Below are positions 2,579-62,322 of a DNA stretch of 64,000 nucleotides, in pieces. The notes below the pieces were generated by a model. That model did no database searches. It was not told where the DNA came from and worked only from the letters and a program-made list of their open reading frames with translations. The position numbers and the translations under genes were made by a program. Every line of letters starts with the position of its first letter. The stretch's first letter is position 1. Origin of the DNA: Desulfatitalea tepidiphila (lineage in GTDB: Bacteria; Desulfobacterota; Desulfobacteria; Desulfobacterales; Desulfosarcinaceae); assembly GCF_001293685.1 (NCBI RefSeq), contig NZ_BCAG01000005.1:372001-436000 (forward strand), written 5' to 3'.

Positions 2579-2878
2579 AGCAGTTCTAACTGAATGTGAT
2601 TCACCAGACGGGCATGATTCCAGAAGTTATTTGAAAAAAATCGCATAAAAACGGTCATGGCAGGCGTGGGTGGGGCAGATGGCCAGGGCCACGTGAGCCA
2701 GCGGTCGATAGTGCCGGTTGAATGCAAACGGCGGATAAGCGGCCCAGACTGTTTGAGCGCAGCGAGTTTCTGGGCCGCCCGCCGTACATTTTACCGGCAC
2801 TTGACCGCTTGGCGCGTGGCGTCGGCCACATGCTCTTCCCACGCCGGATTTAATGAATCGCATTGAGATAGAATTGCT
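2579..2878. repeat. palindromic MITE-like element, copy A (300 bp)
   Basis: A full-length copy of the dispersed element. Terminal inverted repeats read AGCAGTTCTAACTGAATG on the left, and their imperfect complement on the right. It is flanked by an imperfect 11-bp duplication, GGCCACCCTCC / GGCCGCCTTCC. The interior is a long inverted repeat whose inner arms meet at a loop around 2748-2768 (GTTTGAGCGCAGCGAG). No coding potential. Lies between the cupin gene and the sigma-54 promoter. Confidence 0.85.
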
Positions 2879-3021
2879 GGCCGCCTTCCGGATTGAGGCG
2901 GGCGACCCCATCGTCCCGTGCGCAATTTTTGTACCCCTCACGCCGCAAGTTTGCACCGCCCGTGACCGTTAGTACTTCTCAATTAAAATAATTTTACTTA
3001 TAATTTCAATGACATTTGCTT

Positions 3022-3037
3022 TGGCACGTGGATTGCT
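3022..3037 (+). promoter_or_regulatory. sigma-54 (-24/-12) promoter
   Basis: TGGCACGTGGATTGCT matches the sigma-54 consensus TGGCACG-N4-TTGCW at every defined position. The invariant GG and GC are exactly 10 bases apart. It points at the small secreted protein starting at 3133, leaving an untranslated leader of about 85 bases. No activator site was identified. Confidence 0.85.
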
Positions 3038-3132
3038 TTTATATTTGGCAATCGCCGGTGGGATCTCAATACTTCGGGGGAAGGGAGGCTACCCGGCGGA
3101 AACCAGTTCCATCATAGAGGGAGGAAAGAGAA

Positions 3133-3408
3133 ATGAAACGTCATCGTATGAGATGGATCGCCGTCATGCTGGTCATCGGCTTCTTGACCGCTGCCGTCGC
3201 CATTGCCGGTGATCAAAGCATTACCGGTACGGTGGAGAAAACAAAACAGGGCATCGTCATTTCGGCAGACGATGGCGCCACCTACATGGTCCAAGGAAAA
3301 GACCTGTCCGAAATGGTCGGGAAGACGGTCAAAGCCACCGGCACGCTGGCCGAAGGAAAATCCGGCAAGACCCTGACGGTCATCAGCATCGAACCGGTTA
3401 ACGAATAA
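3133..3408 (+). CDS. small secreted protein, OB-fold-like
   Basis: 91 residues. Residues 1-26 form a clear Sec signal peptide (basic start MKRHRMR, hydrophobic core, VAIAG cleavage region). The mature part, about 65 residues, alternates beta-strand-like segments (ITGTVEKTKQGIVISADDG, YMVQGKDL, KTVKATGTL) and looks like a small OB or SH3-type barrel of unknown function. AGAGGGAGGAAAGAG provides a strong ribosome binding site. Expression probably depends on sigma-54 through the promoter at 3022. A strong terminator follows at 3560. Confidence 0.75.
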   Translation: MKRHRMRWIAVMLVIGFLTAAVAIAGDQSITGTVEKTKQGIVISADDGATYMVQGKDLSEMVGKTVKATGTLAEGKSGKTLTVISIEPVNE

Positions 3409-3559
3409 GCCCCAACCCTGCCGGCCCGGCGTTTCCGGTTCACCCCAATGCTTGCCGGATAAGACGGGCCGGCAGATCCCAACCCCTCCGTGGCCGTCGG
3501 GACACTCCTTTCTTGGAGCCCGTTCCCGTCCACAAAGAGCTTCCACCCCTTCGTGACGC

Positions 3560-3602
3560 CCGGTGCACCGCCGACGCTCGTTGGCGGTGCACCGGTTTTT
3601 TT
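3560..3602 (+). terminator. strong intrinsic terminator
   Basis: A perfect 13-bp stem (CCGGTGCACCGCC / GGCGGTGCACCGG) with a 10-base loop is followed by seven T residues. It ends plus-strand transcription from the sigma-54 unit and sits immediately next to the stop of the convergent AMMECR1 gene. Confidence 0.9.
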
Positions 3603-4209
3603 AGCGCCCCGCTTCCCTGTGCTCCTCGAAGGATTGGACCTGGTAGGTTTCGACTTGCAAATCCCCCCGCCGCCAGGCGTCGGCAGACAATCCGGCCTTC
3701 ATGCACAAGTGGGAGAGAAACACCTCGGGTAGCGGCAACTGATCCCATACCTGGGGCAGAAACGTGGCTTGGGCGAAGCCTTTACGGATGGTCACCCCTT
3801 CGATACGGGGCTTGAGCTTGGCCAGCAGATCATCGGCATCGGTGTAGGAAAGGGGCTGGGATTCCGTCAGCACGCTGATCTCTATGTCCACCTCCTCCAG
3901 TTCGGCTCGACCCAGAGGCTTGAACCGCGGGTCGTGAAACGCGGATTGAATCGCATGATGGCGAACACCTTCGACAATGGACTCATGTCCTACCAGGCTG
4001 CCGATACAGCCTCTCAGTTGGCCGCCGATCTTCAGTGTGACGAAGGTGCCGCTGTGGCGCTGCATGGCCGGAGCGGACAACAGTTCGTCCTGCAGACCCC
4101 CATCCAGGCCCGGATCTTTTCCGGTCAGCCTGGCCGTCAGCGTTCTGCGGGCCAGGCGCACCAGCGCTTGCCCCTGGTCGTCATCGAGTTCAGACACTTG
4201 GATTGACAT
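3601..4209 (-). CDS. AMMECR1 domain protein (AmmeMemoRadiSam system protein A)
   Basis: 202 residues from the ATG preceded by GGAGAGTGGAAC. AMMECR1 hallmarks are present: FVTLKIGGQLRGCIGSL (the conserved LRGCIG core), AFHDPRFKPL and the IEISVLTE strand. In many prokaryotes this protein is encoded beside a Memo-domain protein and a radical SAM enzyme. Neither partner is nearby here. Its biochemical activity is not established for the family. The upstream gene on the same strand, a LOG-like fusion, ends 51 bases before this start, so the two are probably one transcription unit. Confidence 0.85.
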   Translation of the reverse strand: MSIQVSELDDDQGQALVRLARRTLTARLTGKDPGLDGGLQDELLSAPAMQRHSGTFVTLKIGGQLRGCIGSLVGHESIVEGVRHHAIQSAFHDPRFKPLGRAELEEVDIEISVLTESQPLSYTDADDLLAKLKPRIEGVTIRKGFAQATFLPQVWDQLPLPEVFLSHLCMKAGLSADAWRRGDLQVETYQVQSFEEHREAGR

Positions 4210-4259
4210 GTTCCACTCTCCATTGAACAAAGATATCATCAAGAACCAATGGCCACGTC

Positions 4260-6227
4260 TCAAAACAGCTGCAGTTGTTTGAGGTAGGCCTCGATGACCA
4301 CTGCCGGATCGTCCGTGATCACCAGATGATCGTTGATCCAGGCCGGTGCCCGCTGATGCTGGACCATGGTGGCGATCTGGCGGCGCATGCTGTTCCAGAA
4401 ATCACGCTCACCTTCGGTGTCGAACAGGATAATGGGTACCCTCTCAATGATCGACAACTTCATATTGCACAGGGTGATGCCCAGTTCCTCCAGGGTACCC
4501 AGGCCGCCCACGTTGAAAATCGGAAACGAGGCGATCTCGAACCATTTCTGGCGGCTGTGACGGCAGGTGGCCTGAAATACCTGGCAAAAATCCACGTCCG
4601 TGGTCATGGCCTGGTCGGTGATGTCCAAAAAATTGGCACCTGAAAGGATGCCGCGCTGTCGGGCCATGGTGTTGGCCGCCTCCATCACCCCGCTGCCGCC
4701 GCCGGTCACGATGCCGATGCTCTTCCCCCAAAATGCGACCAGTGCATCCATCAGCTTCCCGAGCCGTTCGGTGGCGACCGGGGAGAGAGGCAACGTTGAG
4801 CCATAAAATGCAAAAAGCATGGACTTATGAAAATCGGCCAGCCGATCCGTGGCCACGAAATAGCCTTTCCCGTCACGCATGGTATGGACCATCAACCGTT
4901 GGTTCAAGCTGCAGATCCAATACACATCCACCCCAAAGGCGTGGTACTCTTGCAGGCGGGAGTGGTCCTCCTGGGAGAGAAAGGGTCCGAATTCACATGA
5001 GGCTTCGAAAAAATATAGCGCGCGGACCTTCTCCCTGACCACCAGGTTGATGATGTCGCGATGCTCGACCAGATTGGGAAAATACTTCAACACCAGAGCT
5101 CCGGCGGGCTGCTGAGGGTCCGGATGGATGCGCGACGTGGCGTACTGGTGGCAACAGCGGCTCCGCGTAGAAAAATCCACCCTTGCCGTCGAACATTGTG
5201 CCTTGGAGACCGGGCATTTCTCCTTGGGACCGTTGGCGAAGAACTCGACCTTTTTCAATCCCTGGGAAGGATCGACCATGGCCACGGAACGATCCGTAAA
5301 ATAACAAGTCCCTTTCGGACGCGCATCCAGTTGGGCTTGCAACCGCTTCAGGTCGGCCAGGCTCAAGCCTTTGGGGCCCGATGGCGATGTCTTGCGCCGC
5401 TCCCCGGTCCTTTTTTGAGGGGTGCCGTATACCCGGGCGCTGATCAGGGGATTCACGATCGTATGGCGCGTCCCGTTGATGATTTCCAGGTAGATGCATA
5501 TCCCCCGCGTCTTGATCGGATCGAGAACCGTGGCCGGTAGGTTGCGTCCCAACGAAAATCCACTCTGCAAGACGACATAATGCTCGTTCAGGTACATGGA
5601 GCAGGTCGTGATCACCCCTTCGCCGGGGGGAATCACCAGATGCGGCACCTTTTTCTGAAGCTGATAGCGGTTGAGCATTTCACGGCCATCTTCGCGCAGC
5701 AGGATTCTGCCGAAGGTCTCCTGGTCCACATCTTCGCGCAGCGTGCACACCACCCGGTGGGGTGCGATCACGATACTGCCGTCGCTGGAAATAGCCGCAG
5801 AGGCCGGTAGCTTGAGCTCGGCGCGGTCGACCGCGGCCAGTACCTCCTCGGATGTGAGTAGGGCGTCGGGATCGCAAAACACCATGCGTCCCACCGGAAG
5901 ACCTTCGTCGAAGAACATCCCCAACTGGTCCAACCCCGGATAGCCGGGAATGGCGGCCGATGCGGTCTGGGTCAACACCAGCAGGTCGCCATCGAGATGG
6001 TCGATGCACGGCGGATCGGAGGTGATCTGCACCCCAAGCCGCGCGATGCGCGAACGTTCACTGAAGACGATGTGCTCCGGGTTTTCCTTGAGTTGCCGGA
6101 TCATGTGCTGGGACAAGCCGAATGCGCTCTGGAAGGTGATACGCCGGCCATCGTTGGACAACACCTTGATAATGCAACCATCGTCAGACTGTAAAATTCC
6201 CCTGAAGGATCGATTGTCTCTCATCAT
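4260..6227 (-). CDS. LOG-like Rossmann protein with a long N-terminal region
   Basis: 655 residues. The C-terminal quarter resembles the LOG/TIGR00730-type nucleotide-binding fold: GIVTGGGSGVMEAANTMA at about 505-525 and VGGLGTLEELG at about 575, close to the PGGxGTxxE motif but with Val for Pro. The first 480 residues are of unknown type. They include a strand-rich part (1-290), a lysine-rich linker (about 275-300) and a cysteine cluster (KEKCPVSKAQC, SRCCHQY). LOG enzymes release free cytokinin-type bases or cleave nucleotide 5'-monophosphates. Whether that chemistry holds here is not known. Confidence 0.65.
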   Translation of the reverse strand: MMRDNRSFRGILQSDDGCIIKVLSNDGRRITFQSAFGLSQHMIRQLKENPEHIVFSERSRIARLGVQITSDPPCIDHLDGDLLVLTQTASAAIPGYPGLDQLGMFFDEGLPVGRMVFCDPDALLTSEEVLAAVDRAELKLPASAAISSDGSIVIAPHRVVCTLREDVDQETFGRILLREDGREMLNRYQLQKKVPHLVIPPGEGVITTCSMYLNEHYVVLQSGFSLGRNLPATVLDPIKTRGICIYLEIINGTRHTIVNPLISARVYGTPQKRTGERRKTSPSGPKGLSLADLKRLQAQLDARPKGTCYFTDRSVAMVDPSQGLKKVEFFANGPKEKCPVSKAQCSTARVDFSTRSRCCHQYATSRIHPDPQQPAGALVLKYFPNLVEHRDIINLVVREKVRALYFFEASCEFGPFLSQEDHSRLQEYHAFGVDVYWICSLNQRLMVHTMRDGKGYFVATDRLADFHKSMLFAFYGSTLPLSPVATERLGKLMDALVAFWGKSIGIVTGGGSGVMEAANTMARQRGILSGANFLDITDQAMTTDVDFCQVFQATCRHSRQKWFEIASFPIFNVGGLGTLEELGITLCNMKLSIIERVPIILFDTEGERDFWNSMRRQIATMVQHQRAPAWINDHLVITDDPAVVIEAYLKQLQLF

Positions 6228-6419
6228 AAGGATCTGTCGGATACTCCCCCTGCGACTTGACTGTTAAAAGATTGAAAACCTTTTGCCACGAATTGTCACA
6301 TGCGAGCCCTGCGGCGTCCCCCCCTTTTCTGCCGGTGGAACACCGCGTCCGGTGGTCAACCCGCGACCTGCACCATTTTACTATGATGATTTCCAAACCT
6401 GATTTCAACACTTTATTGC

Positions 6420-6436
6420 CGGCACGGTTTTTGCTT
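6420..6436 (+). promoter_or_regulatory. sigma-54 (-24/-12) promoter
   Basis: CGGCACGGTTTTTGCTT keeps GG-N10-GC and the CACG and TTGC blocks, differing from consensus only in the first base (C for T). It lies about 55 bases before the ATG of the zinc-ribbon membrane protein at 6491 and points towards it. It is the second such promoter within 3.5 kb. Confidence 0.72.
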
Positions 6437-6490
6437 AAGCTCTTTTTGACGTATTGTAACGGACTGCAACCGCCATGAACGAGGCCCAAG

Positions 6491-7600
6491 ATGAGATGTC
6501 CTAAATGCGGATACGAGCGACAGCCCAACGACAACAAGTTCGCACCGGCGACAGAGTGTCCCGCCTGCGGCGTGGTTTACGCCAAATCAGCCCCCGGCGA
6601 GACGGTAACACCTGCTAATCCAGGGCCTGCAAAAAAAACCAGCCCGGTTCACGAAGCATCCCTCAAGCGGGCTCGCGAGCGCGTTGAAAAACGACTGCGG
6701 CAGCGAATGGAAAGCGGCCGTCAAAAAGATGAACGAACCGAAAAAACCCTCCAGCGGGCTCGGCGTCTGGCTGCCGAAGGCGTACGCCAGCGTCAGGCGG
6801 AATGGAAGCGTCGTCAGATGGAAGAAAAAAAGGAACCGGACGACCGGACCATGGCCGAAGCGGCCATCCGGGTCAAAGATCCGACGATTGACCTCGACGG
6901 CTTCAAAAATGGAAGGCTGACGATGTTCGGCGTCGTTCGTCCCGAAATGGGCGGTGATGCCTCGGAACATGCCCCGGACCAAGATCGGCTTTCCAGGCGC
7001 AAGAACAAGGCGACCGTTTCGGTGACCGACGCGCTTGCAAAAATGGCCCCCGGTGACAACCTGTTTTCGGAAAAACAACCCAGAAAGGATACCCCGCCGA
7101 CGATGCTATCCGACCCACCGACAATGGCAGCCGCCAATCTGGAACCCTCCGATCCAATGACGATCGAACCGACGGCAGAATCAGAGGCGCACGATACGGC
7201 TTGCCAAAGCATGACCGAGAACGATAGCGACAGCATGCCCCGGGATCTACCTGAATGGACCGCTTACGCGGCTCAAAAGGCCCATCTCCAGCCCGGCATC
7301 TCGCTGATGCGCCTGCTGCCCGGCGCCGCGTGGCTCGTGTTGATCGTGGGCCTGACAGGGGCCGTACTGTCATGGATCACCCTCAACGATGTCCATGCCG
7401 ACGTAGAGGCGGCCATCACTACCAGCAACGGACCGGTTCCCATCGCCCTGCTGCTCGGCTTCGCCTATCTGGCCACCGGCATCCTGGGATTTGCTTTTTT
7501 CTGGGTAAGCGCCACCATCGGGGGCCAACTCAAGCAAATCCAACAGGAGCTGCAAACGAGAATGTCTTGCCAGGAGGATAGGAAAGATACTCAGAAGTAG
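6491..7600 (+). CDS. zinc-ribbon, two-TM membrane protein of unknown function
   Basis: 369 residues. The start MRCPKCGYERQPND...ECPACGVVY is a four-cysteine zinc ribbon. Residues about 50-125 are a very basic/acidic helix (KRARERVEKRLRQRMESGRQ) likely to form a coiled coil. The middle is low-complexity and acidic. Two hydrophobic helices (about 275-297 and 315-338) sit near the C-terminus. The plan suggests a tail-anchored membrane protein with a cytoplasmic zinc ribbon. No catalytic motif was found. It has a sigma-54 promoter and stands alone between two long genes. Confidence 0.7.
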   Translation: MRCPKCGYERQPNDNKFAPATECPACGVVYAKSAPGETVTPANPGPAKKTSPVHEASLKRARERVEKRLRQRMESGRQKDERTEKTLQRARRLAAEGVRQRQAEWKRRQMEEKKEPDDRTMAEAAIRVKDPTIDLDGFKNGRLTMFGVVRPEMGGDASEHAPDQDRLSRRKNKATVSVTDALAKMAPGDNLFSEKQPRKDTPPTMLSDPPTMAAANLEPSDPMTIEPTAESEAHDTACQSMTENDSDSMPRDLPEWTAYAAQKAHLQPGISLMRLLPGAAWLVLIVGLTGAVLSWITLNDVHADVEAAITTSNGPVPIALLLGFAYLATGILGFAFFWVSATIGGQLKQIQQELQTRMSCQEDRKDTQK

Positions 7601-13792: not shown

Positions 13793-13838
13793 CCCTCGCT
13801 GCAGATATCCCTCATGTTAAGCGAATCATGCGTTGGCC

Positions 13839-14141
13839 AGGGATTCTAACTGAACTTGATTGATTAAACCCGGCGTGGGTGGAACAGGTGGCCGATGCCA
13901 CACGCCAAGCGGTCAAGAGCCAGTAAAATGCACGGCGGGCGGCCCAGAAACTCGCTGCGCTCAAACAGTCTGGGCCGCTTGTCCGCCGTTTGCATTTAAC
14001 TGGCTCTAAGACCGCAGGCTCACGTGGCCCTGGCCACCTGCCCCACCCACGCCTGCCATCTCGATTGCCATGCGATTTTTTTAATCAAAAAACTTTGGGA
14101 AGCGCACCCTTAAAGGTGAATCGCATTCAGTTAGAATTGCT
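13839..14141. repeat. palindromic MITE-like element, copy B (303 bp)
   Basis: A full-length copy in the opposite orientation to copy A, lying between the convergent ino1 and cdaA genes. Ends are AGGGATTCTAACTGAA on the left and CATTCAGTTAGAATTGCT on the right. The flanks ATGCGTTGGCC / GTGTGTTGGGG agree at 7 of 11 positions, a decayed target duplication. The inner arms pair as GAGCCAG / CTGGCTC. Confidence 0.85.
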
Positions 14142-14180
14142 GTGTGTTGGGGTGTCTTAATACGCCGGTGGGGCTCTGTC

Positions 14181-15620
14181 CTATGCGTCGCGACGGCGGA
14201 TGGTATACCGCACGGTCACCTTGCCCTGGCCGGGGGAGTCGCCAGCCAGACGCACGCCCGTTTTGGTCACCACCGGCACGTCGACCTGGCCCGATACGGT
14301 GAGCCGGTCCAGTTTCACCTTCTCTGTGTAGAGGGTGCTGATCTTCTCGAGTAGCCCCTTGGTGCCGATGGCAGCCAGGCGATTCGGCGTGACCGAGACG
14401 CTTTCGAGAATCAACCCGTCCGGCAAGGCACCGACCCAATCCACCTGGACCGGAAGTTCCTTCCGGGTGGGCACATCCAAGGCCACCTGCACCTCAGGCG
14501 GCTCGATGCGGTTCAACCGCACCCCGGGCGGCAGCGTGATGTTGTCCCTGGAAAGACTGAAAAGATTCATTCCATTGACCGCCGTGCTCAGATCCAGCTT
14601 GGCCTTGACCTGGTCGGCACGCAACGATCCGATCAAGGCACTCGAACCGCTCAAATGCAGCCGCACGGTATTGACCGATGTGGAAATGATCTGCATTCCC
14701 GAATCACGATTGGAATACTCCAGCGGCACCTCGACGCTGGTCAATGTCTCCATGCCCTTGGCAATGCTGAACCAGACCCCGGCCATGCACAAAAAGCATA
14801 TGGCTGCGGCCACGGCCAGCTCCCGGCGCTCGCGCTGAATTCCCTGGTTGTTGGCGCCCCCCGCGCCCACATGCGCCGCCAGGGTCTTTTTGAGGGACAA
14901 GTTGTCATAAATCGGAACGAAAGTCTGCCCCTTGGCCGCTACCACCTGTCCCCGCTCTTCGGAAACCACGATGACCAACGCGTCGGACTGCTCGGCCATT
15001 CCAACCGCCGCCCGGTGACGGGTCCCATAGTATTGGGGCAAATCATCCCTCAAACTCAATGGCAGGATGGCCCCCACACGGGTCACCCGGTTGTTCTCGA
15101 GGATGGCGGCGCCATCGTGGACGGGATTCCCGTTGTAAAAAATCGAAAGGAGCATCTCCTTGGAGATGAGGCCGCCCCATGTGACACCGCCCTGGATGAT
15201 CTCGTCCAGGTCATCTTTGCCCGGGATCACGATAAGCGCGCCGGTGCGGGTTCTTGCCAATTCATAGACCCCTTCCACGATGCTGTCGATGGGGGTCCGC
15301 ACGGTTTTGTGGGGAAAATCCCACAGCAGGGCCTTCAAATTCTTGGCCTGGAGGACGTTCCTGATCTCGTTGCGAAATACGATCACGATGATCAGCGCCG
15401 CACCCGCGATGATGCCTTGCATGGCCCAACTGGTCACGATCAAGCCCAGGGTCACGGCGATTCGCTGGAATATCCACAAGAGGGCGATGCCGACCAACAC
15501 ACGCATGACGTTGGTGCCCCGAAACAGCACATAGAGACGAAACAGGATATATCCGTTCAACAGGATATCGACAATATCCTGCCACCGGATGGAGTGGAAG
15601 AAAGCAAAGAGGAAGTTCAT
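14181..15620 (-). CDS. cdaA: diadenylate cyclase CdaA fused to YbbR/CdaR domains
   Basis: About 480 residues from the ATG giving MNFLFAFFHSIRWQ; a GTG 39 bases upstream overlaps the previous gene and is the alternative start. Three membrane helices at the N-terminus are followed by a DAC domain with both signature motifs: NPVHDGAAIL (DGA) and GTRHRAAVGM (RHR). These make c-di-AMP from two ATP. After a fourth helix (about 270-290) come YbbR-type beta repeats, outside the membrane by topology. CdaA and its regulator CdaR are normally separate proteins; here they are one chain. The DUF2914 gene just upstream is likely co-transcribed. Confidence 0.88.
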   Translation of the reverse strand: MNFLFAFFHSIRWQDIVDILLNGYILFRLYVLFRGTNVMRVLVGIALLWIFQRIAVTLGLIVTSWAMQGIIAGAALIIVIVFRNEIRNVLQAKNLKALLWDFPHKTVRTPIDSIVEGVYELARTRTGALIVIPGKDDLDEIIQGGVTWGGLISKEMLLSIFYNGNPVHDGAAILENNRVTRVGAILPLSLRDDLPQYYGTRHRAAVGMAEQSDALVIVVSEERGQVVAAKGQTFVPIYDNLSLKKTLAAHVGAGGANNQGIQRERRELAVAAAICFLCMAGVWFSIAKGMETLTSVEVPLEYSNRDSGMQIISTSVNTVRLHLSGSSALIGSLRADQVKAKLDLSTAVNGMNLFSLSRDNITLPPGVRLNRIEPPEVQVALDVPTRKELPVQVDWVGALPDGLILESVSVTPNRLAAIGTKGLLEKISTLYTEKVKLDRLTVSGQVDVPVVTKTGVRLAGDSPGQGKVTVRYTIRRRDA

Positions 15621-15645
15621 AGCAGGCAACCACAAAACGCTGGGT

Positions 15646-16071
15646 TCAATCAACGACACTGAATCGCAATGTCTGGATCAGTTCGTCCTCGGCATCCAGG
15701 ATCTCAACGCGCCAGGGCCCCTTGTCGTCATCGCGCAATTGAACGCTGCTGTAAGTCGCCCAGCTGGGTGGCTTGAGTGTCAGGCGCTTGGCAGTGACCA
15801 GTTCATCACGCCGAAACCATTTGTGCTGAACAAAGGTGGTTTGAGCAACGCCCGCAAAAGCGCTGTAGCAGGAAATTCTACCGACATTGATGGAAAAAGC
15901 CGCGGCAACGTGTTTGGGTTCGTATCCCTCGATCGATTCGCACATGGCGGCCCGCACGAGTCGAAACGGTTTGGCCTGGGCGGCAAAATCATCGTCGGCC
16001 GCAAAAGCCTTCGAAAACCCGGCGAAAAGAAAAACCAAAACGATCCAGCAACCAACATATCTGCGTTTCAT
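15646..16071 (-). CDS. DUF2914 domain protein, secreted
   Basis: 141 residues. Residues 1-24 form a signal peptide (MKRRYVGCWIVLVFLFAGFSKAFA). The rest matches the DUF2914 pattern: a strand-rich domain with VHHKWF-like QHKWFRRDEL, SWATYSS and GPWRVEILDAEDELI. Proteins of this family are periplasmic or membrane-tethered with unknown function. It ends 26 bases before the CdaA ATG and overlaps the alternative GTG start, so the two probably form one unit. Confidence 0.78.
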   Translation of the reverse strand: MKRRYVGCWIVLVFLFAGFSKAFAADDDFAAQAKPFRLVRAAMCESIEGYEPKHVAAAFSINVGRISCYSAFAGVAQTTFVQHKWFRRDELVTAKRLTLKPPSWATYSSVQLRDDDKGPWRVEILDAEDELIQTLRFSVVD

Positions 16072-16415: not shown

Positions 16416-16545
16416 GGCAACCCCCTTCTGTAGGTAAGGTCCATCCCTCTCCGCAACACGATGGGAACACAGCCTCGGGCGCGGCTCGGTACCCTTAATA
16501 TCGCCAGGCGCCGATACGAGCTTTAGTCGTTTTTGAATGCCCTGC

Positions 16546-16606
16546 AGCATCGGCCACCTGTTCTATACTCGCCGGGTATAATGAATCGCATTCAGTTAGA
16601 ATCGCT
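16546..16606. repeat. palindromic MITE-like element, fragment C (one end only)
   Basis: About 61 bases matching the right end of the A-orientation element: the CATCGGCCACCTG arm segment, then GCCGGGTATAATGAATCGCA and the terminal CAGTTAGAATCGCT. The rest of the element is missing. It lies in the divergent gap before the MFS gene. Confidence 0.7.
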
Positions 16607-16752
16607 CGGCACCGCCGCTATCACTTGTGGCGCCTGGGGGTGGCATGCTAATATCGCCCCCTGATTTTGCCCTCCACAATTACAGGTTGTGCATGACCAT
16701 CGACGACCGTTCGTTCCACCATGATACGGAGATGTGCTCAAGGAGAAACTGA

Positions 16753-24469: not shown

Positions 24470-24652
24470 GATGTTCGCCCTTTCAGCGCTGGCATGTTAC
24501 CGCGCCATGATGGATCCCATGGCCGCATCGCCCGCAGTGGTTCGCAAATGCGGCATCCGTGCTCGATTTTCATCAGCAGGCACCATAGAGCCGAGCGGGT
24601 TGCTTGTCAATTTCATCCGCTCTCTGTCGGGGATTCGGATAGACGACACGAC

Positions 24653-24963
24653 AGCAGTTCTAAGTGAATGTGATTCACCCTGAAGGACATGCTTCCCAAA
24701 AGTCTTTTAAAACAATTCGCATGGCAACGGAGATGGCAGGCCCGGGTGGGGCAGGTGGCCAGGGCCACGCGAGCCACACGGGGTAGTGCCGCTCGAATGC
24801 AAACGACGGACAAGCGGCCCGGACTGTTTGACCCAGGCGCAGGCCGGGGGAGTTTCTGGGCCGCCCGCCGTGCATGTTACCGGCACTTGACCGCTTGGCG
24901 TGTGGCATCGGCCACCTGCCCACCCGGGCCGAGTTTAATGAATAGCATTCAGTTAGAGTCCCT
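24653..24963. repeat. palindromic MITE-like element, copy D (311 bp)
   Basis: A full-length copy in the same orientation as A, in the divergent gap before the ferredoxin gene. It is bounded by GACGACACGAC / GACGACGCGAC, an 11-bp target duplication matching at 10 of 11 positions. The loop differs from the other copies: GACCCAGGCGCAGGCCGGGGG replaces GAGCGCAGCGAG, which explains the extra length. A long plus-strand reading frame runs through it, but the real downstream gene starts at 25094. Confidence 0.87.
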
Positions 24964-25093
24964 GACGACGCGACAGGATGCTTGCCACCCCTGCCTCGCC
25001 CTGTTATACTTTGTTCACGAAATCAACTCTCCATGGTCCACCCGAAAGGCAAGCAACAGGATTTCACTCCGCAGACACCGACGCGAGGATGCC

Positions 25094-26446: not shown

Positions 26447-27771
26447 CCCCCGAACAGGAAGAACTTCGCGAGAAGGCCCGCCGGTTTGCCCGGGAAGAGG
26501 TGCTGCCGGTGGCCGCCTATTATGACGGCATCGACCAGACCCCCTTGCCTGTGATTCAAACAGCCTATGACGCCGGCATTATCAATCTGAACATCCCCAA
26601 GCAGTACGGTGGGCAGGGACTGGGACTGCTCGAGGCCACCCTGGTGGTCGAAGAGATCGCCGCCGCCTGCGCCGGTACGGCCACGTCGCTCTTCGATAAC
26701 TCCCTGGGCATGGAACCGCTCCTGCTCTCGGACAACGAGGCCCTCAAGGAGAAATACCTGCCCCGGGTGGCCCATGAGTTCAAAAAGATCTGTTTTGCCA
26801 CCTCCGAGCCCACCATGGGATCGGACGTCTCCGGTATCCGCTGCCGGGCCGAGGAGGATGGCGACGACTATATTCTCAACGGCACCAAATACTGGATCAC
26901 CAATGGCGGCCTGGCCGACTACGCATCGGTGTTCGCAACGATCGATCCAAAATCCAAACACAAAGGCATCTGCGCATTCCTGGTAGAGATGGACTGGCCC
27001 GGGGTGACCGTGGGCCGTCCCATTCCCAAAATGGGGCAGCGCTGTTCCAACACCGTGGGCATCCACTTCAAAGACGTGCGCGTGCCCAAAGCCAACGTGC
27101 TGGCCCCCCCGGGCAAGGGGTTCGTGCTGGCCATGAAGACCTTTGCCCGAACCCGGCCCACCATCGGTGCTTTCGGCGTGGGCGCCGCCCGATCGGCGAT
27201 GGAATTCGCCATTGACTATGCCAAGCGGCGCCAAGCCTTCGGCATGCCCATCAGTGGTTTTCAGGGCATCCAGTTCAAGCTTGCCGAAATGTACCAGAAA
27301 GTCGAAACCGCCCGGTTGCTCACCTGGCGATCGGCCTGGGAGTCGGACCAGGGGCTGGACGCCAACATCAGCGCATCGATCGCAAAAATGTACGCCACCG
27401 AATCGGCCCTGGAAGTGGCCGACGAAGCCCTGCAGGTGTTTGCAGGCTACGGCTACACCAAGATGTTTCCGGTGGAAAAAATCCTCCGGGACGTCCGCCT
27501 GCTGCGCATTTACGAAGGCACCAGCGAGGTCCAGCGGGTGGTACTGGCCGGCTACCTGCTCGGGAGCTATGAACCGGTCATGCCGGCACTGGAAGACCTG
27601 CCCATTCACCGCGAACAGAATCCACTGGAAGCCGAAGAGGGCCAGAAGGTCTGGCGCTGCCGCATGTGCGGGTATATCCATTACGGAGACGAAGCGCCGG
27701 AAGCATGCCCCTACTGCTTCTTCCCTCAGTCGGCCTTCAAAGAGGTCGGCGCCGCGAACCAGCAGTCCTAA
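26428..27771 (+). CDS. acyl-CoA dehydrogenase with C-terminal rubredoxin-like domain
   Basis: 447 residues. The first 385 match the acyl-CoA dehydrogenase fold (ATSEPTMGSDVSGIRC, NGTKYWITNGG, KRRQAFGMPISGFQGIQFKLA, LQVFAGYGYTKMFPVEKILRD and the YEGTSEVQR end). FAD oxidises acyl-CoA to enoyl-CoA. Unusually, residues about 402-440 add a rubredoxin-type metal site, WRCRMCGYIHYGDEAPEACPYC. This suggests direct electron transfer to iron instead of ETF. The start ATG overlaps the upstream ferredoxin gene, with AAGGAAGGACAACC as binding site. The final NQQS and the stop codon lie in the left end of repeat copy E. Confidence 0.9.
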   Translation: MLDFRLTPEQEELREKARRFAREEVLPVAAYYDGIDQTPLPVIQTAYDAGIINLNIPKQYGGQGLGLLEATLVVEEIAAACAGTATSLFDNSLGMEPLLLSDNEALKEKYLPRVAHEFKKICFATSEPTMGSDVSGIRCRAEEDGDDYILNGTKYWITNGGLADYASVFATIDPKSKHKGICAFLVEMDWPGVTVGRPIPKMGQRCSNTVGIHFKDVRVPKANVLAPPGKGFVLAMKTFARTRPTIGAFGVGAARSAMEFAIDYAKRRQAFGMPISGFQGIQFKLAEMYQKVETARLLTWRSAWESDQGLDANISASIAKMYATESALEVADEALQVFAGYGYTKMFPVEKILRDVRLLRIYEGTSEVQRVVLAGYLLGSYEPVMPALEDLPIHREQNPLEAEEGQKVWRCRMCGYIHYGDEAPEACPYCFFPQSAFKEVGAANQQS

Positions 27772-28062
27772 CTGAATGTGATTCAACCTGAAGGGCATGC
27801 ATTCCAGTGGTTGTTTGATAAAAATTCGCATGGCAATGGTTGTGGCAGGCCTGGGCGGGACAGGTGGCCAGGGCCACGTGAGCCAGCGGTCTTAGAGCCG
27901 GTTAAATGCAAACGGCGGACAAGCGGGCCAGACTGTTTGAGCGCAGCGAGTTTCTGGGCTGCCCGCCGTGCATTTTACCGGCTCTTGACCGCTTGGCGTG
28001 TGGCATCGGCCACCTGCCCCGCCCGGGCCGGATTTAATGAATAACTTCCAGTTAGAATCGCT
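27761..28062. repeat. palindromic MITE-like element, copy E (302 bp)
   Basis: A full-length copy in A orientation. Its left end overlaps the last 11 bases of the acyl-CoA dehydrogenase gene and supplies its TAA. Flanking 11-mers CGCCGCGAACC / GGCCGAGAACC agree at 9 of 11. Inner arms pair as GAGCCGG / CCGGCTC. It lies before proA on the same strand, so it would be part of the transcript if the genes were read through. Confidence 0.87.
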
Positions 28063-28151
28063 GGCCGAGAACCATTGACTTTGAAATTTTGCCTGTTTCG
28101 TTGTATGTAGCCGGCCTGTTGACAAAAACAAGCTGCGCAGAGGTCATAAAC

Positions 28152-36082: not shown

Positions 36083-36175
36083 TCGACCACCTCCTCAGTG
36101 CGTTTTTTGAAAATGGTTTTAATAGCACGCTCTTGAATGGCTGCCAAGTACAAATCAAGTGCGCCACGAGGCCGG

Positions 36176-36202
36176 CTATCCCCAGGGTAAAGGCAAAGAA
36201 AG
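36176..36202. repeat. 27-bp direct repeat, left of element F
   Basis: This 27-mer begins CTATCCCCAGGGTAAAGG and matches 36423-36449 at 25 of 27 positions. On the minus strand the right copy encodes the last eight residues and stop of the CPBP protease (LSLPLPWG*). The left copy is therefore a detached duplicate of that gene end, with element F between them. Confidence 0.8.
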
Positions 36203-36204
36203 GG

Positions 36205-36422
36205 CCAGCAGCTTTTATTGAATGCGATTCATTTTATCCGGCATGGGTGAACCAGGTGGCCGATGCCACACGCCAAGCGGTCAACTGCCGCTATGAATGC
36301 ACGGCGGGCGGCCCAGAAACTCGCTGCGCTCAAACAGTCTGGGCCGCTTGACCGCCGTTTGCATTCAAGCGGCACTAACGACCCCTGGCGTATGTGGCCC
36401 TGGCCACCTGCTCAACCCATGC
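36205..36422. repeat. palindromic MITE-like element, copy F (one end lost)
   Basis: In B orientation. The left end (AGCAGCTTTTATTGAATG) and the whole hairpin core are present, with arms TGCCGCT / AGCGGCA. The right arm stops after CCCATGC, about 75 bases short of a full copy. The sequence continues directly into the stop codon of the CPBP gene. Flanked by the 27-bp direct repeat. Confidence 0.82.
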
Positions 36423-37079
36423 CTATCCCCAAGGCAAAGGCAAAGAAAGTACGAAGATGGCCGTGTTGCCCAGCACATGGATGGTCAAAGGCACCATCAG
36501 GTTGCGACTGGTTTCATACGCCAGGGCGAACACGATGCCTCCGACCACCTGGGTGACAGGCAGGCCGTGAACGGAATGCAGGGCCACGAAGATGGCGGTG
36601 CTGACGATCAGAGCCGTCCAGACGCCCCACCTGCGGAAGAAGGTGTACAGCACGCCCCGGAAACAGATCTCCTCGGCCAGGGGGGCCACCCATCCGCCGA
36701 CAAGGAAGAACAGGGCCGTTTCCATACGGCTGGCGGGTAAAGGCGTGTGCAACAGGGCAAACGGATCGTTTCCGGTCAGGAAGATTACGGCCATGCCCAA
36801 AGCCGCCGCAAGCGCAAACCCCAGGGACCACGCGGCTCCCTTTTTCAACCCCGCGCCCCACGTGGCCGGGGCCCAGCCGATAGCCGCCAACCCGCCTTCC
36901 AGACGCACAATCAGAACGAGCAAAAGAACGATCTGGCACAGCCGGGTCAAGCCGAGCAACACCAGGGGCGAGACCTCCATTTGCCGAATGAGCCATCCCG
37001 CCGCCGCTTCCGTGGCGATCAAGACCGCCAGGGTCGCAGCCAGGGTCAGGGGCCTGATGTGGATCGGGTCTGACGCCAT
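36423..37079 (-). CDS. CPBP family intramembrane glutamic endopeptidase
   Basis: 218 residues from the ATG behind GAGGAGGCTTGG. About six membrane helices. CPBP/Rce1 active-site motifs are visible: APLAEEICFRGVLY (EExxxR), FVALHSVHG (motif 2 His) and IHVLGNTAIF (motif 3 His/Asn). Family members process or protect against small peptides, or act on prenylated proteins. The start overlaps the end of the upstream HEAT-repeat membrane protein by 34 bases, so translation is probably coupled. Its last codons are duplicated beyond element F. Confidence 0.88.
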   Translation of the reverse strand: MASDPIHIRPLTLAATLAVLIATEAAAGWLIRQMEVSPLVLLGLTRLCQIVLLLVLIVRLEGGLAAIGWAPATWGAGLKKGAAWSLGFALAAALGMAVIFLTGNDPFALLHTPLPASRMETALFFLVGGWVAPLAEEICFRGVLYTFFRRWGVWTALIVSTAIFVALHSVHGLPVTQVVGGIVFALAYETSRNLMVPLTIHVLGNTAIFVLSLPLPWG

Positions 37080-46262: not shown

Positions 46263-46348
46263 GCGTTCTTTCCCATCCACGATTAAAACAAAAAAACCTA
46301 ACCCAATACATTTTGCCCAAAAAGTCAATCCCATATCGCCGGCAGGGC

Positions 46349-46421
46349 AGGGATTCTAACTGAATTCTATTCATTAAGCCCGGCGTGAGTGGGACAGGTG
46401 GCCGATGCCACAGGGCAAGCG
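46349..46421. repeat. palindromic MITE-like element, fragment G (left end)
   Basis: 73 bases in B orientation: AGGGATTCTAACTGAATT, TCATTAAGCCCGGCGTGAG, then ACAGGTGGCCGATGCCACA. The match stops at about 46421. What follows (46422-46620) is unrelated and contains a different inverted repeat. Confidence 0.75.
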
Positions 46422-46467
46422 AATTCAAACTCCGGAAGCGTGGCAAACGGGCAGGGCCAGCGCAGTC

Positions 46468-54367: not shown

Positions 54368-54373
54368 TCGGCA

Positions 54374-57758: not shown

Positions 57759-57785
57759 AGGCTTCTATGACCTTTTACCGTACCG

Positions 57786-58352: not shown

Positions 58353-58495
58353 GATTCTCCTTTCAAGGATAAAAAAAGCCATTCGAACGGCTCGAAACAT
58401 TTGAAACCAGCGAAGTTGGCCTCAGGCGGGTCGTTTCATCGCCCATCCACCTTAACTGTTTTTGACAGAGGCTTCAAGCCAAGCCCTCACGACCC

Positions 58496-58556
58496 GGGAA
58501 TTCTAACTGAATGTCATTCATTGGATCCGACCCGGGTTGGACAGGTGGCCACCGGC
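58496..58556. repeat. palindromic MITE-like element, fragment H (left end)
   Basis: About 60 bases in B orientation: GGGAATTCTAACTGAATGTC, TTGGATCCGACCCGGGTTGG, ACAGGTGGCC. The match ends there. It is in the divergent gap between nosL and the SafE-type gene. Confidence 0.72.
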
Positions 58557-58610
58557 CCCTTTTTGGTCTATATAAACAACTTCGTTCATCTGAAAAGGAG
58601 CCATCCAACC

Positions 58611-59300
58611 TTGGAGAGCGGCGTCGATCATCTTTCCATGTTTCTGCTGGGGCTGCTGGGATCGGGGCATTGCATCGGCATGTGCGGGCCGTTGATCATC
58701 GCCCTGCCCGGCCGTTATGGCCGCTGGTCCGCCCACATCATCTACCACCTGGGGCGCCTGCTGACTTACGGCGCGGTCGGTGCGCTCATGGGCGGCGTCA
58801 ACCAGGGTCTGGTCCGATTGGCCGGCGGCGGCGCCCAGGCGGCCCTGGCCTGGACCACGCGCATGCAAATCGCCATCTCTGCATTTGCCGCGATCTGCCT
58901 GCTGCTCATGGGCCTGGCTCGAATCGGCCTGGTCCATGAACCCGCGTGGATGGTCAAGGCATCCCCTCAGCGGATTCCCGGATACCAAACCCTGATGCGG
59001 CGCTCCTTGGACCGCCGCAACGCGATTTGGCTTTTCGGCATGGGATTGATGCTCGGTCTGCTGCCTTGCGGCCTTTCCTACGGGGCCTTCACCCGCTGCC
59101 TGGCCGCTGAAAGTTTTGCCACCGGCGCCGCCCTGGCCGGCAGTTTCGGTCTGGGCACCCTGCCCGGCCTCCTGCTCCTCGGCACCGGCCTGACTCGTCT
59201 GTTGCGGCGCTATCAAATACAAACCGAATTGATCGCCGGTCTCGTCATGATCGGCATGGCGGTCGTGCTGTTCGCCGACGCCTGGACCGCACTCGCTTAG
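58611..59300 (+). CDS. SafE/TauE-type membrane exporter family protein
   Basis: 229 residues from a TTG that follows AAAAGGAGCCATCCAACC at good spacing; the ATG at 58638 lacks a site and is the alternative. About six helices with the conserved GSGHCIGMCGPLIIALPG at the start and GLLPCGLSYGAF in the second half. These cysteine/proline motifs are typical of the DsbD/CcdA-related SafE group often found next to cytochrome oxidase or copper-handling genes. Function beyond membrane transport or thiol/metal handling is not known. It faces the nosL gene across fragment H. Confidence 0.8.
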   Translation: MESGVDHLSMFLLGLLGSGHCIGMCGPLIIALPGRYGRWSAHIIYHLGRLLTYGAVGALMGGVNQGLVRLAGGGAQAALAWTTRMQIAISAFAAICLLLMGLARIGLVHEPAWMVKASPQRIPGYQTLMRRSLDRRNAIWLFGMGLMLGLLPCGLSYGAFTRCLAAESFATGAALAGSFGLGTLPGLLLLGTGLTRLLRRYQIQTELIAGLVMIGMAVVLFADAWTALA

Positions 59301-59399
59301 CTGTCATTGAATGGGATTCTGAACCATTGAAGGTATTTACTATTGCCATGAATTTCGGTATGCGTGCTTGGATCTCATAAAAAAGGACCTGACGCACCC

Positions 59400-60320
59400 A
59401 TGACGCAGATATTCCAAAATCGTCTCAAACTCTTTCTGGCCTTGTCCCGCACCCCTCACGGCATCATCGACATGGCCGCACCGGCATTGGCGGCTCTCCT
59501 TTGTCTGGGCCATTTCCCGCCGATCCAGGTGACGCTGGTAGGGATCGTTACGGTATTTGCCGGATACACGGCGGTTTACGCGCTGAACGACCTGGTCGAC
59601 CTGCGAACCGACCGGCAGAAAGTCGATATCGGCGGCTACAGCGACGGTGAAAACTACCTCGACGGCGTGATGATGCGCCATCCCATGGCCAAAGGCGCCC
59701 TGAGTTTCAAAGCCGGTCTCGCATGGGCCGTGGGCTGGGCGATCCTCGCCCTGGCCGGCGCCTACTGGCTCAACCCGGTGTGCCTCTATATTTTTCTTGC
59801 CGGATGTCTTCTCGAAGGCCTTTACTGCAAACTCTGGCGGGTAACCCCCCTGCGCGCCCTGGTCAATGGCGCTGTCAAAACACTCGGGTCCGTGGCAGCA
59901 GTCTTTGCCGTCGACCCTTCGCCATCACCACTTTTCCTGATCGCCCTGTTTGCATGGATGTTTGCCTGGGAAATCGGCGGCCAGAATATCCCCAATGACT
60001 GGACCGACATCGAAGAGGACCGTCACTTCAAGGCTCAGACCATCCCCCTGCGCCTCGGCCTGCACAAGGCCACGCTGGTCATCGTGGCCTGTTTGACGGC
60101 CACGCTTTTTCTCAACATCGTCCTGTTGTGGGTCTCGCCACTCACCTTCGGCATCCTGCCCATGATCGTCGTGGTAGCCGTGAACGTCCTTCTCCTGCTT
60201 CATCCGGCCCTGCTGCTGGTCGAACGCCAAAAACGAGAGTTGGCCATGACGCTGTTCAACAAGGCCAGTTATTATCCCCTCGCCATATTGGGGATTGTGC
60301 TGGTTCGGCTGGCCTACTGA
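59400..60320 (+). CDS. UbiA family prenyltransferase
   Basis: 306 residues. Eight or nine hydrophobic helices and both Asp-rich prenyl-diphosphate motifs: YALNDLVDLRTDRQK and NIPNDWTDIEEDRHFKA. The spacing fits UbiA-type intramembrane transferases that attach prenyl chains to an aromatic or polyol acceptor (quinones, chlorophyll, archaeal-type lipids). The acceptor cannot be told from sequence. The ATG at 59400 is preceded by AAAAAAGGA at long spacing. The SafE-type gene precedes it by 99 bases. Confidence 0.88.
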   Translation: MTQIFQNRLKLFLALSRTPHGIIDMAAPALAALLCLGHFPPIQVTLVGIVTVFAGYTAVYALNDLVDLRTDRQKVDIGGYSDGENYLDGVMMRHPMAKGALSFKAGLAWAVGWAILALAGAYWLNPVCLYIFLAGCLLEGLYCKLWRVTPLRALVNGAVKTLGSVAAVFAVDPSPSPLFLIALFAWMFAWEIGGQNIPNDWTDIEEDRHFKAQTIPLRLGLHKATLVIVACLTATLFLNIVLLWVSPLTFGILPMIVVVAVNVLLLLHPALLLVERQKRELAMTLFNKASYYPLAILGIVLVRLAY

Positions 60321-60509
60321 TTGGACTCGCTGCCGAAACTAGTACCTCGGCCTTCCACGTTTCCTTGCCTGGTCCAAACGGAAGACGACAGCAGGTCTCT
60401 CCGTTGGAATCCATAAGGCAGTACTTGACCTCTATAACACCTTGACGATCTCACGCCGCATCGCCTGCGGGGAAATGCGAGGACGGCATAGATAGCGCTG
60501 GATCCCGGA

Positions 60510-61541
60510 TCAGGTCCGGGCTGGCGGAAGGTGATCTTTTGGATTACGGGCATTAAAAGCGATCTCTGCTCCGGCCTCACGCGCCCTCGAGTGCGCTATA
60601 GACCTGCGCCGTATCCTTCTCAAAAACGAAGTAAACGACTCCCGCTGCCAATCCTGGAAAATCAAGTCATTATGCCCGCCCCGCGCAATCACGATGTTTT
60701 CCCCGGGCAGGAAGCCAAGAACGGCGTTTAACGTGTCCTTGAACGGCACGATGGCATCGTCCACATTGAGAAACAGGTTGAGATCGTATCCGTACTGTCT
60801 GCTCAAGGCCGCCATTGCCGGAAGGATGTTGAAGCTGACGATGTCACGTGCCTCGCGATAGGAACGCAACGGGTCTTTAAAGGCCCTGGAGGCCATCGCG
60901 GCAATCCCGCAGATCTGGCGATGAATATAAATGGTTTTCCAGGGGTCGTCTTCTCCGATCGGCCCGCGGCCCAAGCCGACCATATGGGCGAACATCTTTA
61001 ACCAACCGAGAAGCACATACCCTAAAATGAAACGCAAACAATGGGTGACGGCACCAATCTTTCTCCTGAATCCAGGCGGATTGATAAAAAGCACACTCTT
61101 CACCCAGGACCGGTAACCCAATGGATCTGACATCAGGGTTCGCACCACTTCGAAGGCGGCATACGAATGGGCGACGATGTCAATCCCTTTGACATGCCGG
61201 TCTTCCTTGAGTCTGGAGACATAGTCTTTGAAAGCACTCTTGCGAAATAACTTGGGCCGGATGGCCGGTCCAAGCAAGCTTCCCATGGGATAATCGATCG
61301 CCGCCACCGTCATTCCGCTGGCTATCAAGTGTTGAATCAATTCGTGTTGATCATTTAGCGTAATACTGGTGCCGCCAATGAGCAACACCGGTCTCTGGAC
61401 ATCATCTGATAAAAAAGAATTCTCTTCGCGGGTGAGGCACTGACCCGTCGCATAAAGTCCGTGATATTCTCCGTGTAGACTTTCTTTACCAAATAAGAAA
61501 GCATATCGGCGCAAATGTGCGCCTTGCATACACAACTGCAT
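60510..61541 (-). CDS. alpha/beta hydrolase-like protein
   Basis: 343 residues from the ATG behind GGAGGGTCGGG. The fold is suggested by VLLIGGTSITLND (oxyanion region), IDIVAHSYAAFEVVRTL (nucleophile elbow, Ser in HSYAA rather than GxSxG), VDDAIVPFKDTL (acid) and ARGGHNDLIFQDW (catalytic His). The triad order fits an esterase or lipase of unknown substrate. Its last four or so codons (PPART) come from a dispersed hairpin repeat at 60499-60525. Confidence 0.7.
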   Translation of the reverse strand: MQLCMQGAHLRRYAFLFGKESLHGEYHGLYATGQCLTREENSFLSDDVQRPVLLIGGTSITLNDQHELIQHLIASGMTVAAIDYPMGSLLGPAIRPKLFRKSAFKDYVSRLKEDRHVKGIDIVAHSYAAFEVVRTLMSDPLGYRSWVKSVLFINPPGFRRKIGAVTHCLRFILGYVLLGWLKMFAHMVGLGRGPIGEDDPWKTIYIHRQICGIAAMASRAFKDPLRSYREARDIVSFNILPAMAALSRQYGYDLNLFLNVDDAIVPFKDTLNAVLGFLPGENIVIARGGHNDLIFQDWQRESFTSFLRRIRRRSIAHSRAREAGAEIAFNARNPKDHLPPART

Positions 61542-61844
61542 CCCGACCCTCCATTTCTGCAAGGTTTACCAACAGAAACAAAACAGGGATCGATTCCTCG
61601 TGATGACAATTCGTTCAGGTCAATCTCAATTCAAACGCCGATCTTCTGAAATGGGTTCTAAAGCGGCGACCCAACGGTATCGATGATTCAGGAGTGACAG
61701 CGATCGATTGAACGATAGCGCATGGGAGAGACGGCGCGCCTTGACATACCGATGCCGCAGAATGGCACCCAACTGGATGAAAAGTGTTTACCATGGACCC
61801 GACATCCTTTTCAATATCTTTTAAAACAGTACCCATCCTCGTTG
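61542..61844. other. intergenic stretch without a supported gene
   Basis: About 300 bases upstream of the hydrolase gene and before the repeat region. Reading frames are short and without ribosome binding sites. I see no hairpin or promoter that stands out. Confidence 0.4.
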
Positions 61845-61876
61845 GGCTTAATGCATGGCATTCAGTTAGAATCACT
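61845..61876. repeat. palindromic MITE-like element, end remnant before copy I
   Basis: GGGCTTAATG...GGCATTCAGTTAGAATCACT repeats the right end of copy I almost exactly. It is followed by GGGTCACATGC, the same 11-mer that flanks copy I on both sides. It is the last piece of an older neighbour copy placed in tandem. Confidence 0.78.
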
Positions 61877-61887
61877 GGGTCACATGC

Positions 61888-62322
61888 AGCAGTTTTAATT
61901 GAAAGTGATTCACAATGAAGGGCATGCATTCCAAAAGTGACGTCACCGTAAAAAGCCCAAGATCTGCGTTGTGCTCATCCCGTCGTCCTTGCGGCGTAAG
62001 ACAAGTACGCCTCAGGACACGGAATTTCGCACGCCTTGATCTTGAACTTTTTACGGTTTTATCAAAAGTGTTTTGTTAAAAAAATTCGCATCGCAACGGA
62101 TATGGCAGGCGTGGGCGGGGCGGGTGGCCAGGGCCACGTGAGCCTGCGGTCTTAGAGCCAGTTAAATGCAAACGGCGGACAAGCGGCCCAGACTGTTTGA
62201 GCGCAGCGAGTTTCTGGGCCGCCCGCCGTGCATGTTACTGGCTCTTGACCGCTTGGCGTGTGGCATCGGCCACCTGCCCCACCCGCGCCGGGCTTAATGA
62301 ATAGCATTCAGTAGGAATCACT
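61888..62322. repeat. palindromic MITE-like element, copy I (with nested element)
   Basis: A full-length copy in A orientation, 435 bp because a second element sits inside; without it about 304 bp. Target duplication GGGTCACATGC / GGGTCACACGC (10 of 11). Inner arms pair as GAGCCAG / CTGGCTC. It ends 18 bases before the -35 box of the thi promoter, so it could influence that promoter by topology or by read-through. Confidence 0.87.
61940..62062. mobile_element. small nested inverted-repeat element (123 bp)
   Basis: Inserted into the left arm of copy I and flanked by an exact 8-bp duplication CAAAAGTG (61932-61939 and 62063-62070). Its ends are complementary: ACCGTAAAAAGCCCAAGATC on the left and GATC...CTTTTTACGGT on the right. 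No coding sequence. The end sequence recurs at 43745, so this is a second dispersed element family. Confidence 0.78.

Follow-up and report, generated by a model that had tools for sequence, protein, structure and literature searches.

The 64,000-nucleotide stretch of the Desulfatitalea tepidiphila genome considered here (hereafter, the window) carries several copies of a repeated element. These repeats are real non-autonomous transposable elements of the kind called miniature inverted-repeat transposable elements (MITEs), about 300 bp long, of one family and without genes. Their right ends tend to lie next to predicted promoters, most often 17 bp before the -35 box, and the polarity is strong. 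This promoter 17 bp beyond the right end is the most telling feature of the family, and it is missing from an earlier description of the window (the sequence-only reading). Our preferred explanation, to which we assign a probability of about 0.82, is that the MITEs are moved in trans by a DDE-type transposase and insert in one orientation upstream of promoters. The window corresponds to C5:372001-436000 of the organism's own genome (G000; 5.61 Mb in seven contigs, of which C1, C5 and C6 are labels used below), and coordinates without a contig prefix are window positions. The genome of a sister species is called G007.

The sequence-only reading proposed six long copies (A, B, D, E, F and I) and four fragments (C, G, H and one at 61845) as one family of non-autonomous transposable elements with no transposase in view. 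Alignment confirms all ten at their places and in a single family, and empty sites in the sister species back their identification as transposable elements. The genes identified near some copies are in keeping with the purely intergenic placement that was proposed. The six long copies are indeed copies, but F is left-truncated, and the termini had been misjudged: aligned full copies begin with CAG at the left and finish with CTG at the right. The element is short, has inverted terminal repeats and no transposase gene, is multicopy and is flanked by a target-site duplication (TSD); it is also polymorphic for presence, with exact empty sites. When the flanks of 42 full copies are anchored on CAG and CTG, the TSD is 9 bp. 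At a shift of 9, identity at flank positions 1 to 9 is 0.71, 0.76, 0.86, 0.79, 0.62, 0.67, 0.74, 0.76 and 0.83; at the tenth position, where C is preferred in the target, it is only 0.50, and flank-position identity at all other shifts from 5 to 15 is at most 0.45. The 11-bp duplication proposed earlier was thus too long, because the 11-mers add the terminal base of the element and one flanking base. The end motif TTCTAACTGAATG, with at most one mismatch, has 79+83 occurrences genome-wide, versus 0 for a reversed-pattern control. When copy B is folded as single-stranded DNA (13837-14139), it forms a long hairpin of -99.3 kcal/mol (z -13.75), which none of 100 shuffles equals.

To survey the family, a profile from 30 copies was searched against C1 (complete), C5:1-450000 and C6:1-140000, together 1.647 Mb or 29% of the genome. 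This search yielded 83 chained loci, of which 47 have both ends, 33 the right end only, 2 the left end only (a 33:2 ratio possibly inflated by degeneration of left ends) and 1 neither. One locus scored as left-only, C1:758055, in fact retains a right end, which escaped the profile. The density of loci, extrapolated linearly, corresponds to about 280 copies genome-wide, and an initial genome search gave 207 to 219 candidates, so a whole-genome copy number of 200-280 is a fair guess.

After exclusion of three of the 83 loci without a usable right end, TTG starts at +18 from the right end in 49 of 80 cases, that is, with 17 bp between the element and a sigma70-like -35 box. Among the 46 loci with both ends and enough flank, TTG occupies +18 on the right in 29 and on the left in 3. 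Matches to TTGACA at four or more of six positions number 46 at offset 18 on the right side, versus 0 to 7 at each of the remaining offsets between 5 and 39; the left side has 5 such matches at offset 18 and 0 to 6 at each of the others. When 66 right flanks are aligned on CTG, positions +18 to +20 carry 0.93, 0.92 and 0.72 bits for TTG, and a -10-like signal appears near +41 to +43. The sister species agrees: 15 of the 28 distinct G007 right ends show TTG at this position (+18).

The TTG at +18 is the strongest signal in these flanks, and might suggest that the transposase itself reads TTGAC as a -35-like motif rather than recognizing polymerase-bound promoters. We consider this unlikely, though it deserves some weight, because a -10 box at the proper spacing is enriched as well. 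Of the 46 right flanks whose hexamer at +18 matches the -35 box at 4/6 or better, 24 also carry a -10 match of at least 4/6 with a spacer of 16-18 bp (most commonly 17), against 16% of all 340 TTGACA sequences in C1. The mean number of -10 matches in these 46 flanks is 3.65, versus 2.47 (standard deviation 0.13) in shuffles.

Comparison with the sister species allowed us to ask what the target sites look like without the element. In total, 24 G000 loci could be compared with G007 DNA, and most flanks are ~90-97% identical. The G007 assembly is incomplete (73%), and the 526 kb of its sequence that was searched contains some stretches twice. As the sequence-only reading had recommended, empty sites were sought, and the copies proved not to be always at the same loci: among the 12 full copies whose sites have orthologous DNA in G007, 8 are absent there and 4 are present in some form. 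Element sequence is retained in G007 at 8 of the 11 right-only loci compared, and the sole left-only locus compared is empty (gap -28). For the 8 absent copies, the G000 flanks joined through one 9-mer align at base level through the G007 sequence, without a gap at the junction in 7 cases and with a 1-base gap in C1:557945.

At 5 of these 8 empty sites (C1:2757, C1:126436, C1:144923, and those of copies D and E), the -35 TTG already occupies +18 in G007. In the other three, the TTG is one base nearer (C1:557945), TTTCC stands in its place (C1:568123) or nothing similar is found (copy A). The empty site of copy D, for example, reads ATTCGGATAG-ACGACACGA-CAGGATGC-TTGCCA...TATAC in G007, so the promoter is present without the element. 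The reverse case also occurs: L182, a copy in G007 with perfect duplicated 9-mers (GGCAAGATG) and TTGCCA at +18, has no counterpart in G000. The site of copy I precedes the thi operon, with its thiamine pyrophosphate (TPP) riboswitch, which was found in all 11 genus genomes searched, each time with a TTGAC-type promoter before it. Within the 230 bases before the match, the element is there only in G000 and G007 (the G007 copy has lost its right end), and 9 of the 11 genomes have the promoter without it. As judged from these alignments, the promoter is thus shown to predate the insertion at 5 of the 8 sites checked.

If the insertion rule is fixed to the promoter, a second element should insert where the earlier one meets its flank, producing the arrangement CTG-9 bp-CAG. 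Such a junction passes a threshold of 10 of 13 positions in copy I, C1:73510 and C5:338584, 3 of the 48 copies that have a left end; no offset other than 9 bp passes except 8 bp, in the single case of C1:758055. A looser threshold (9 of 13) adds four right-end-like matches at 6, 8, 17 and 22 bp, where about 2 over 30 offsets are expected by chance, as estimated from background. The 9-bp tandem arrangement also occurs at locus L020, at L176 of G007, and at L216, which belongs to a diverged sister family. These junctions show repeat insertion at one promoter coordinate. The sister family, found in genomes G005 and G009 of two other species, has ends CAGCAATTCTCGGTGAAC...AGAATTGCTG and a central hairpin in common with the present element, and little else. 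Among its eight complete copies, six have TTG at +18 (five if the one-base shift applied to the end of L212 is not made), and the other two have TTGACA at +20 and TGGACG at +18, respectively; perfect 9-bp duplications flank L209 and L217.

Copies shared by G000 and G007 provide evidence on whether the promoters and the element end are under constraint. Thirteen shared loci were entered, of which 2 gave no alignment and 11 were left; three of the alignments are partial (C5:385835 from about +48, C1:536163 from +16, and C5:418346 from 4 bases inside the element). Over 10 loci, differences amount to 1/60 in the -35 box and 1/80 in the -10 region (2/140 combined). The terminal 26 bp of the element, compared mainly at 8 loci with 4 bases added from a ninth, differ at 30/212, and the 17-bp spacer differs at 19/155. 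The contrast between boxes and element end has a Fisher p of 1.5e-5; it becomes 2/126 vs 23/186 (p 0.0004) without C1:227798, which possibly represents two separate insertions at one site, and weakens to 2/98 vs 11/134 (p 0.048) without the three most diverged loci, which are possibly not orthologous. The predicted promoters therefore look functional, and the element end behaves like unconstrained sequence in these alignments.

These data bear on the idea that insertion is random and is followed by selection, in which the right end acts as a regulatory module and only usefully spaced copies survive. The palindrome TGAATnnnATTCA near -72 could be an operator, and right ends survive much more frequently than left ones (among the 83 loci, 33 are right-only and 2 left-only). 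Nevertheless, we regard this idea as improbable. The end changes as fast as the spacer while the boxes are conserved (a point that is weaker when the three doubtful orthologues are removed), the offset pre-exists in the sister species at 5 of the 8 absent copies, and repeat insertions fall on one base. With a right end that evolves at the pace of the spacer, regulatory exaptation is unlikely as a general explanation. The excess of right-only loci most likely reflects deletions that are unable to cross the promoter, plus some detection bias.

Other explanations fare worse against the structure of the insertions. The sequence-only reading had found its 11-bp duplication compatible with a transposase of the IS4 family; in four copies the 11-mers agree at 9-10 of 11 positions, since the base adjoining the duplication on either side is often identical as well. 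That argument falls with the length of the duplication, which is 9 bp over 42 copies (no IS4 transposase was searched for directly), and we know of no IS4 element with fixed, oriented, promoter-proximal insertion, so an IS4-type mobilizer seems a poor candidate. A bacterial retroelement, which would explain left-truncated copies with a common right end, is harder still to credit. Many copies are left-truncated, and copy F has a 27-bp flanking repeat, but the full copies have defined ends on both sides, and retrotransposition is rejected by the constant 9-bp TSD. Also, most truncated copies are old and occur in both species (G007 retains element sequence at 8 of the 11 right-only loci compared), so truncation looks like decay. 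Finally, the idea that the element includes the promoter and takes it to new sites, as the promoter's position beside many copies might suggest, can be set aside, because flanks differ between copies, the -35 TTG is in place without the element at 5 of 8 empty sites and the thi promoter is without it in 9 of 11 genus genomes.

Promoter-directed insertion could work as follows. The transposase complex would be guided by promoter-bound sigma70-type RNA polymerase, or might read the promoter DNA itself, and would put the right end at about -53 from the transcription start, immediately before the region that the polymerase covers. The difference between the element's two ends would set the orientation. 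Such a position would be safe for the element, since insertion there disrupts neither genes nor core promoters. Copies would then decay by point mutation and by deletion from the promoter-distal side, which would give rise to right-end fragments. The enzyme would probably be a promoter-targeting Mutator-like (p-MULT) transposase or something behaving like one.

Several observations weigh against this explanation. TTG is missing from +18 in 31 of 80 right ends, including those of window copies A and F. By a looser measure (at least 4/6 matches at offsets 17-19), 9 of 46 left flanks qualify versus 33 of 46 right flanks, so polarity may not be absolute. The promoters are consensus predictions, albeit backed by conservation. 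Copies absent from one genome are read as insertions in the other rather than as exact losses on the ground that exact loss of an inserted copy is rare. No transposase with CAG ends was found in the 29% of the genome examined base by base or with models run on G000 and its relatives. A model of the ISLre2 family of insertion sequences (ISs) has no match in G000, in a search whose controls matched nowhere either; it has matches in 34 of 146 relatives (1 above the cut-off), none of them among G000-G010. A model of ISKra4 gives three weak matches in G000, which have other ends and appear to be IS256-like, as judged by reading of the protein rather than by database assignment.

The search for a mobilizing element gave further results. 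Twenty inverted pairs of ends 0.4-6 kb apart in 1.25 Mb disclosed no autonomous partner, although the genes between the pairs were not inspected; the pairs are ends of MITE loci already found by the profile, except for two that use a weak, unexplained match at C1:756775. An inverted-repeat pair flanked by a 9-bp duplication could be fixed for 8 of the 20 transposase loci tried. No terminal sequence shared with these ISKra4 elements was found: six of the 8 begin GGGTG or GAGTG and two weak-model loci of G009 begin GGAG or CGAG, none of them CAG. The IS256-like element of G000 (p-MULT 1) does not share the ends either, its own beginning GGATAACG and GGTAGTGT. Thus, the insertion sequence with matching ends that the sequence-only reading had suggested looking for was not found in G000 or among the relatives' elements whose ends were fixed.

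One lead is an IS-like end, CAGCGATTCTAACTGAATGTTCTTCAG, with a perfect CAG end, at three contig edges (L164, L174 and L180) of G146, a metagenome-assembled genome of Desulfobacteraceae (JAMOUQ01, PIR-30). All three carry one 102-127 bp end, starting CAGCGATTCTAACTGAATG. An identical IS-like end at three contig edges is expected of an unassembled multicopy IS, and this one is a possible edge of an autonomous element; no body for it was found in 395 genomes of the phylum, viral contigs and plasmids. We tentatively raise the possibility that the mover belongs to a promoter-targeting lineage outside ISLre2/TnGBS and ISKra4 that reads initiation-ready sigma70 RNA polymerase, and that CAGCGATTCTAACTGAATGTTCTTCAG is perhaps its autonomous edge. 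If this is true, MITEs that parasitize such a lineage would naturally record active promoters across the whole genome. The gene-less family described here, with its dozens of copies, empty sites and repeated insertions, offers clean data on the way in which bacterial transposases locate promoters, and could permit promoter mapping in uncultured bacteria by sequence only.

Within the window, TTG is at +18 in copies C, D, E, H and I. Copy D (24652..24964, + strand, full) has a TSD matching at 8/9 (ACGACACGA/ACGACGCGA), followed by TTGCCA (24982-24987), 17 bp and TATACT (25005-25010). Copy E (27760..28063, +, full; TSD 8/9, GCCGCGAAC/GCCGAGAAC) has TTGAAA at +18 (28081-28086), is empty in the sister species and precedes an aldehyde dehydrogenase gene. 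Copy I (61887..62323, +, full, with a nested 123-bp sequence; TSD 8/9, GGTCACATG/GGTCACACG) is followed by TTGACA (62341-62346), 17 bp and TATAGG (62364-62369), then by the TPP riboswitch, which is the only Rfam match in the window, and by thiG. Directly upstream of copy I is an older right-end fragment (61832..61877, +), whose CTG is separated from copy I by exactly 9 bp (GGTCACATG). Two other right-end fragments also have the TTG: copy C (16523..16607, +), with TTGTGG at +18 (16625-16630) and TAATAT at 16649-16654, is shared with the sister species and precedes an ATG22/MFS transporter gene, and copy H (58493..58550, - strand) has TTGAAG at +18 (58477-58472) and NosL as the next gene. The four remaining copies lack TTG at that position. 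Copy A (2578..2879, +, full, CAG..CTG) has 9-mers at 2569-2577 and 2880-2888 that match at 7/9 (GCCACCCTC/GCCGCCTTC), has no -35 box at +18 and is empty in the sister species. Copy B (13838..14142, -, full; TSD 7/9, CCCAACACA/GCCAACGCA) has TTAACA at +18 (13820-13815), and G007 has element sequence at this site too, but shortened (gap 195). In copy G (46346..46435, -, right-end fragment), TTGACT starts two bases further on, at +20. The fragments C, G, H and 61845 all retain the right end.

Copy F (36204..36425, -, left-truncated) departs from both the 9-bp rule and the promoter rule. It has no promoter at +18, and its flanks contain an imperfect 27-bp direct repeat (25/27 identical by eye). 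Alignment of the region (36160-36460) with a relative fits one version of the 27-bp repeat and no element (gap -25).

Several observations concern sequences within or beside the copies. The sequence nested in copy I (61940-62062) belongs to a second repeat family of about 117-123 bp, ACGTCACCGTAAAAAG...CTTTTTACGG, with about 15 loci in 1.65 Mb (16 BLAST pieces); it is missing from the G007 ortholog of copy I. Inserts of about 95-160 bp occur at nearly one internal position in four G000 copies (C5:433885, C5:62659, C1:70443 and C5:262399). They comprise at least two clearly different sequences, and flanking 9-mers match by eye in two of them (CATGCGTTG and CAAGCGTTG), which points to an insertion hot spot inside the element. 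The central hairpin, with loop CTGTTTGAGCGCAGCGAGTTT in the copy B core (13838-14142), is found as well in L092, L104, L213 and L218-L228, repeats that have different ends and come from other species and families of the order; the hairpin is a module that several repeat families share. Separately, 14181-15659 (-) is a single 492-aa reading frame with diadenylate cyclase (DAC) and YbbR domains, which are usually encoded by separate genes.

Of 60 genomes searched, 13 have a match to the family: G000 itself, the congener G007 (near full-length copies) and 11 others (mainly the central core). An exact scan of named genomes for the end motif gave 23 stretches, of which 18 are from Desulfatitalea sp. 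UBA4791.

Among known systems, the closest likeness is to elements described by Guerillot et al. (2014, PMC3942029), who report that p-MULT 3 elements (TnGBS and ISLre2) and some ISKra4 elements insert at a constant distance before housekeeping promoters. That account of targeting at fixed distance and orientation concerns autonomous integrative and conjugative elements and ISs; it proposes contact with the RNA polymerase initiation complex and an asymmetry of ends that sets orientation, and names yeast Ty3 with its transcription factors (PMC3942029), a case that invites comparison. In TnGBS and ISLre2, insertion is oriented, with one end 15-17 bp before the -35 box in TnGBS (13-17 bp are marked in the tree figure), compared with 17 bp here; their repeats of 8 or 9 bp, terminal C at both ends and short inverted repeats likewise correspond to our 9 bp and CAG...CTG (PMC3942029). 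They differ in encoding their own transposase, p-MULT elements being 1.1 to 52 kb long, whereas ours is a gene-less hairpin of about 300 bp, and ISLre2 ISs are reported there mainly in Firmicutes, whereas this element is in Desulfobacterota. ISKra4 (p-MULT 4) shares insertion upstream of promoters and duplications of 8 or 9 bp, but the 13 promoter-targeting ISs reported have nearly identical ends and promoters on both sides (PMC3942029), whereas the right is strongly preferred here; the six elements of the same order with fixed ends begin GGGTG or GAGTG, not CAG. In a literature search of titles and abstract openings, with few subscription journals covered, no promoter-targeting MITE was described. 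Correia, MITEAba12 and BrickBuilt elements are also short, gene-less and present in many copies near genes, but are discussed in a review as carrying promoter sequences or an IHF site (PMC10969869). Unlike those MITEs, the element described here keeps a preferred distance from a pre-existing promoter. In its behaviour it resembles promoter-targeting p-MULT elements such as TnGBS/ISLre2 and some ISKra4 elements, and it may be one of them.

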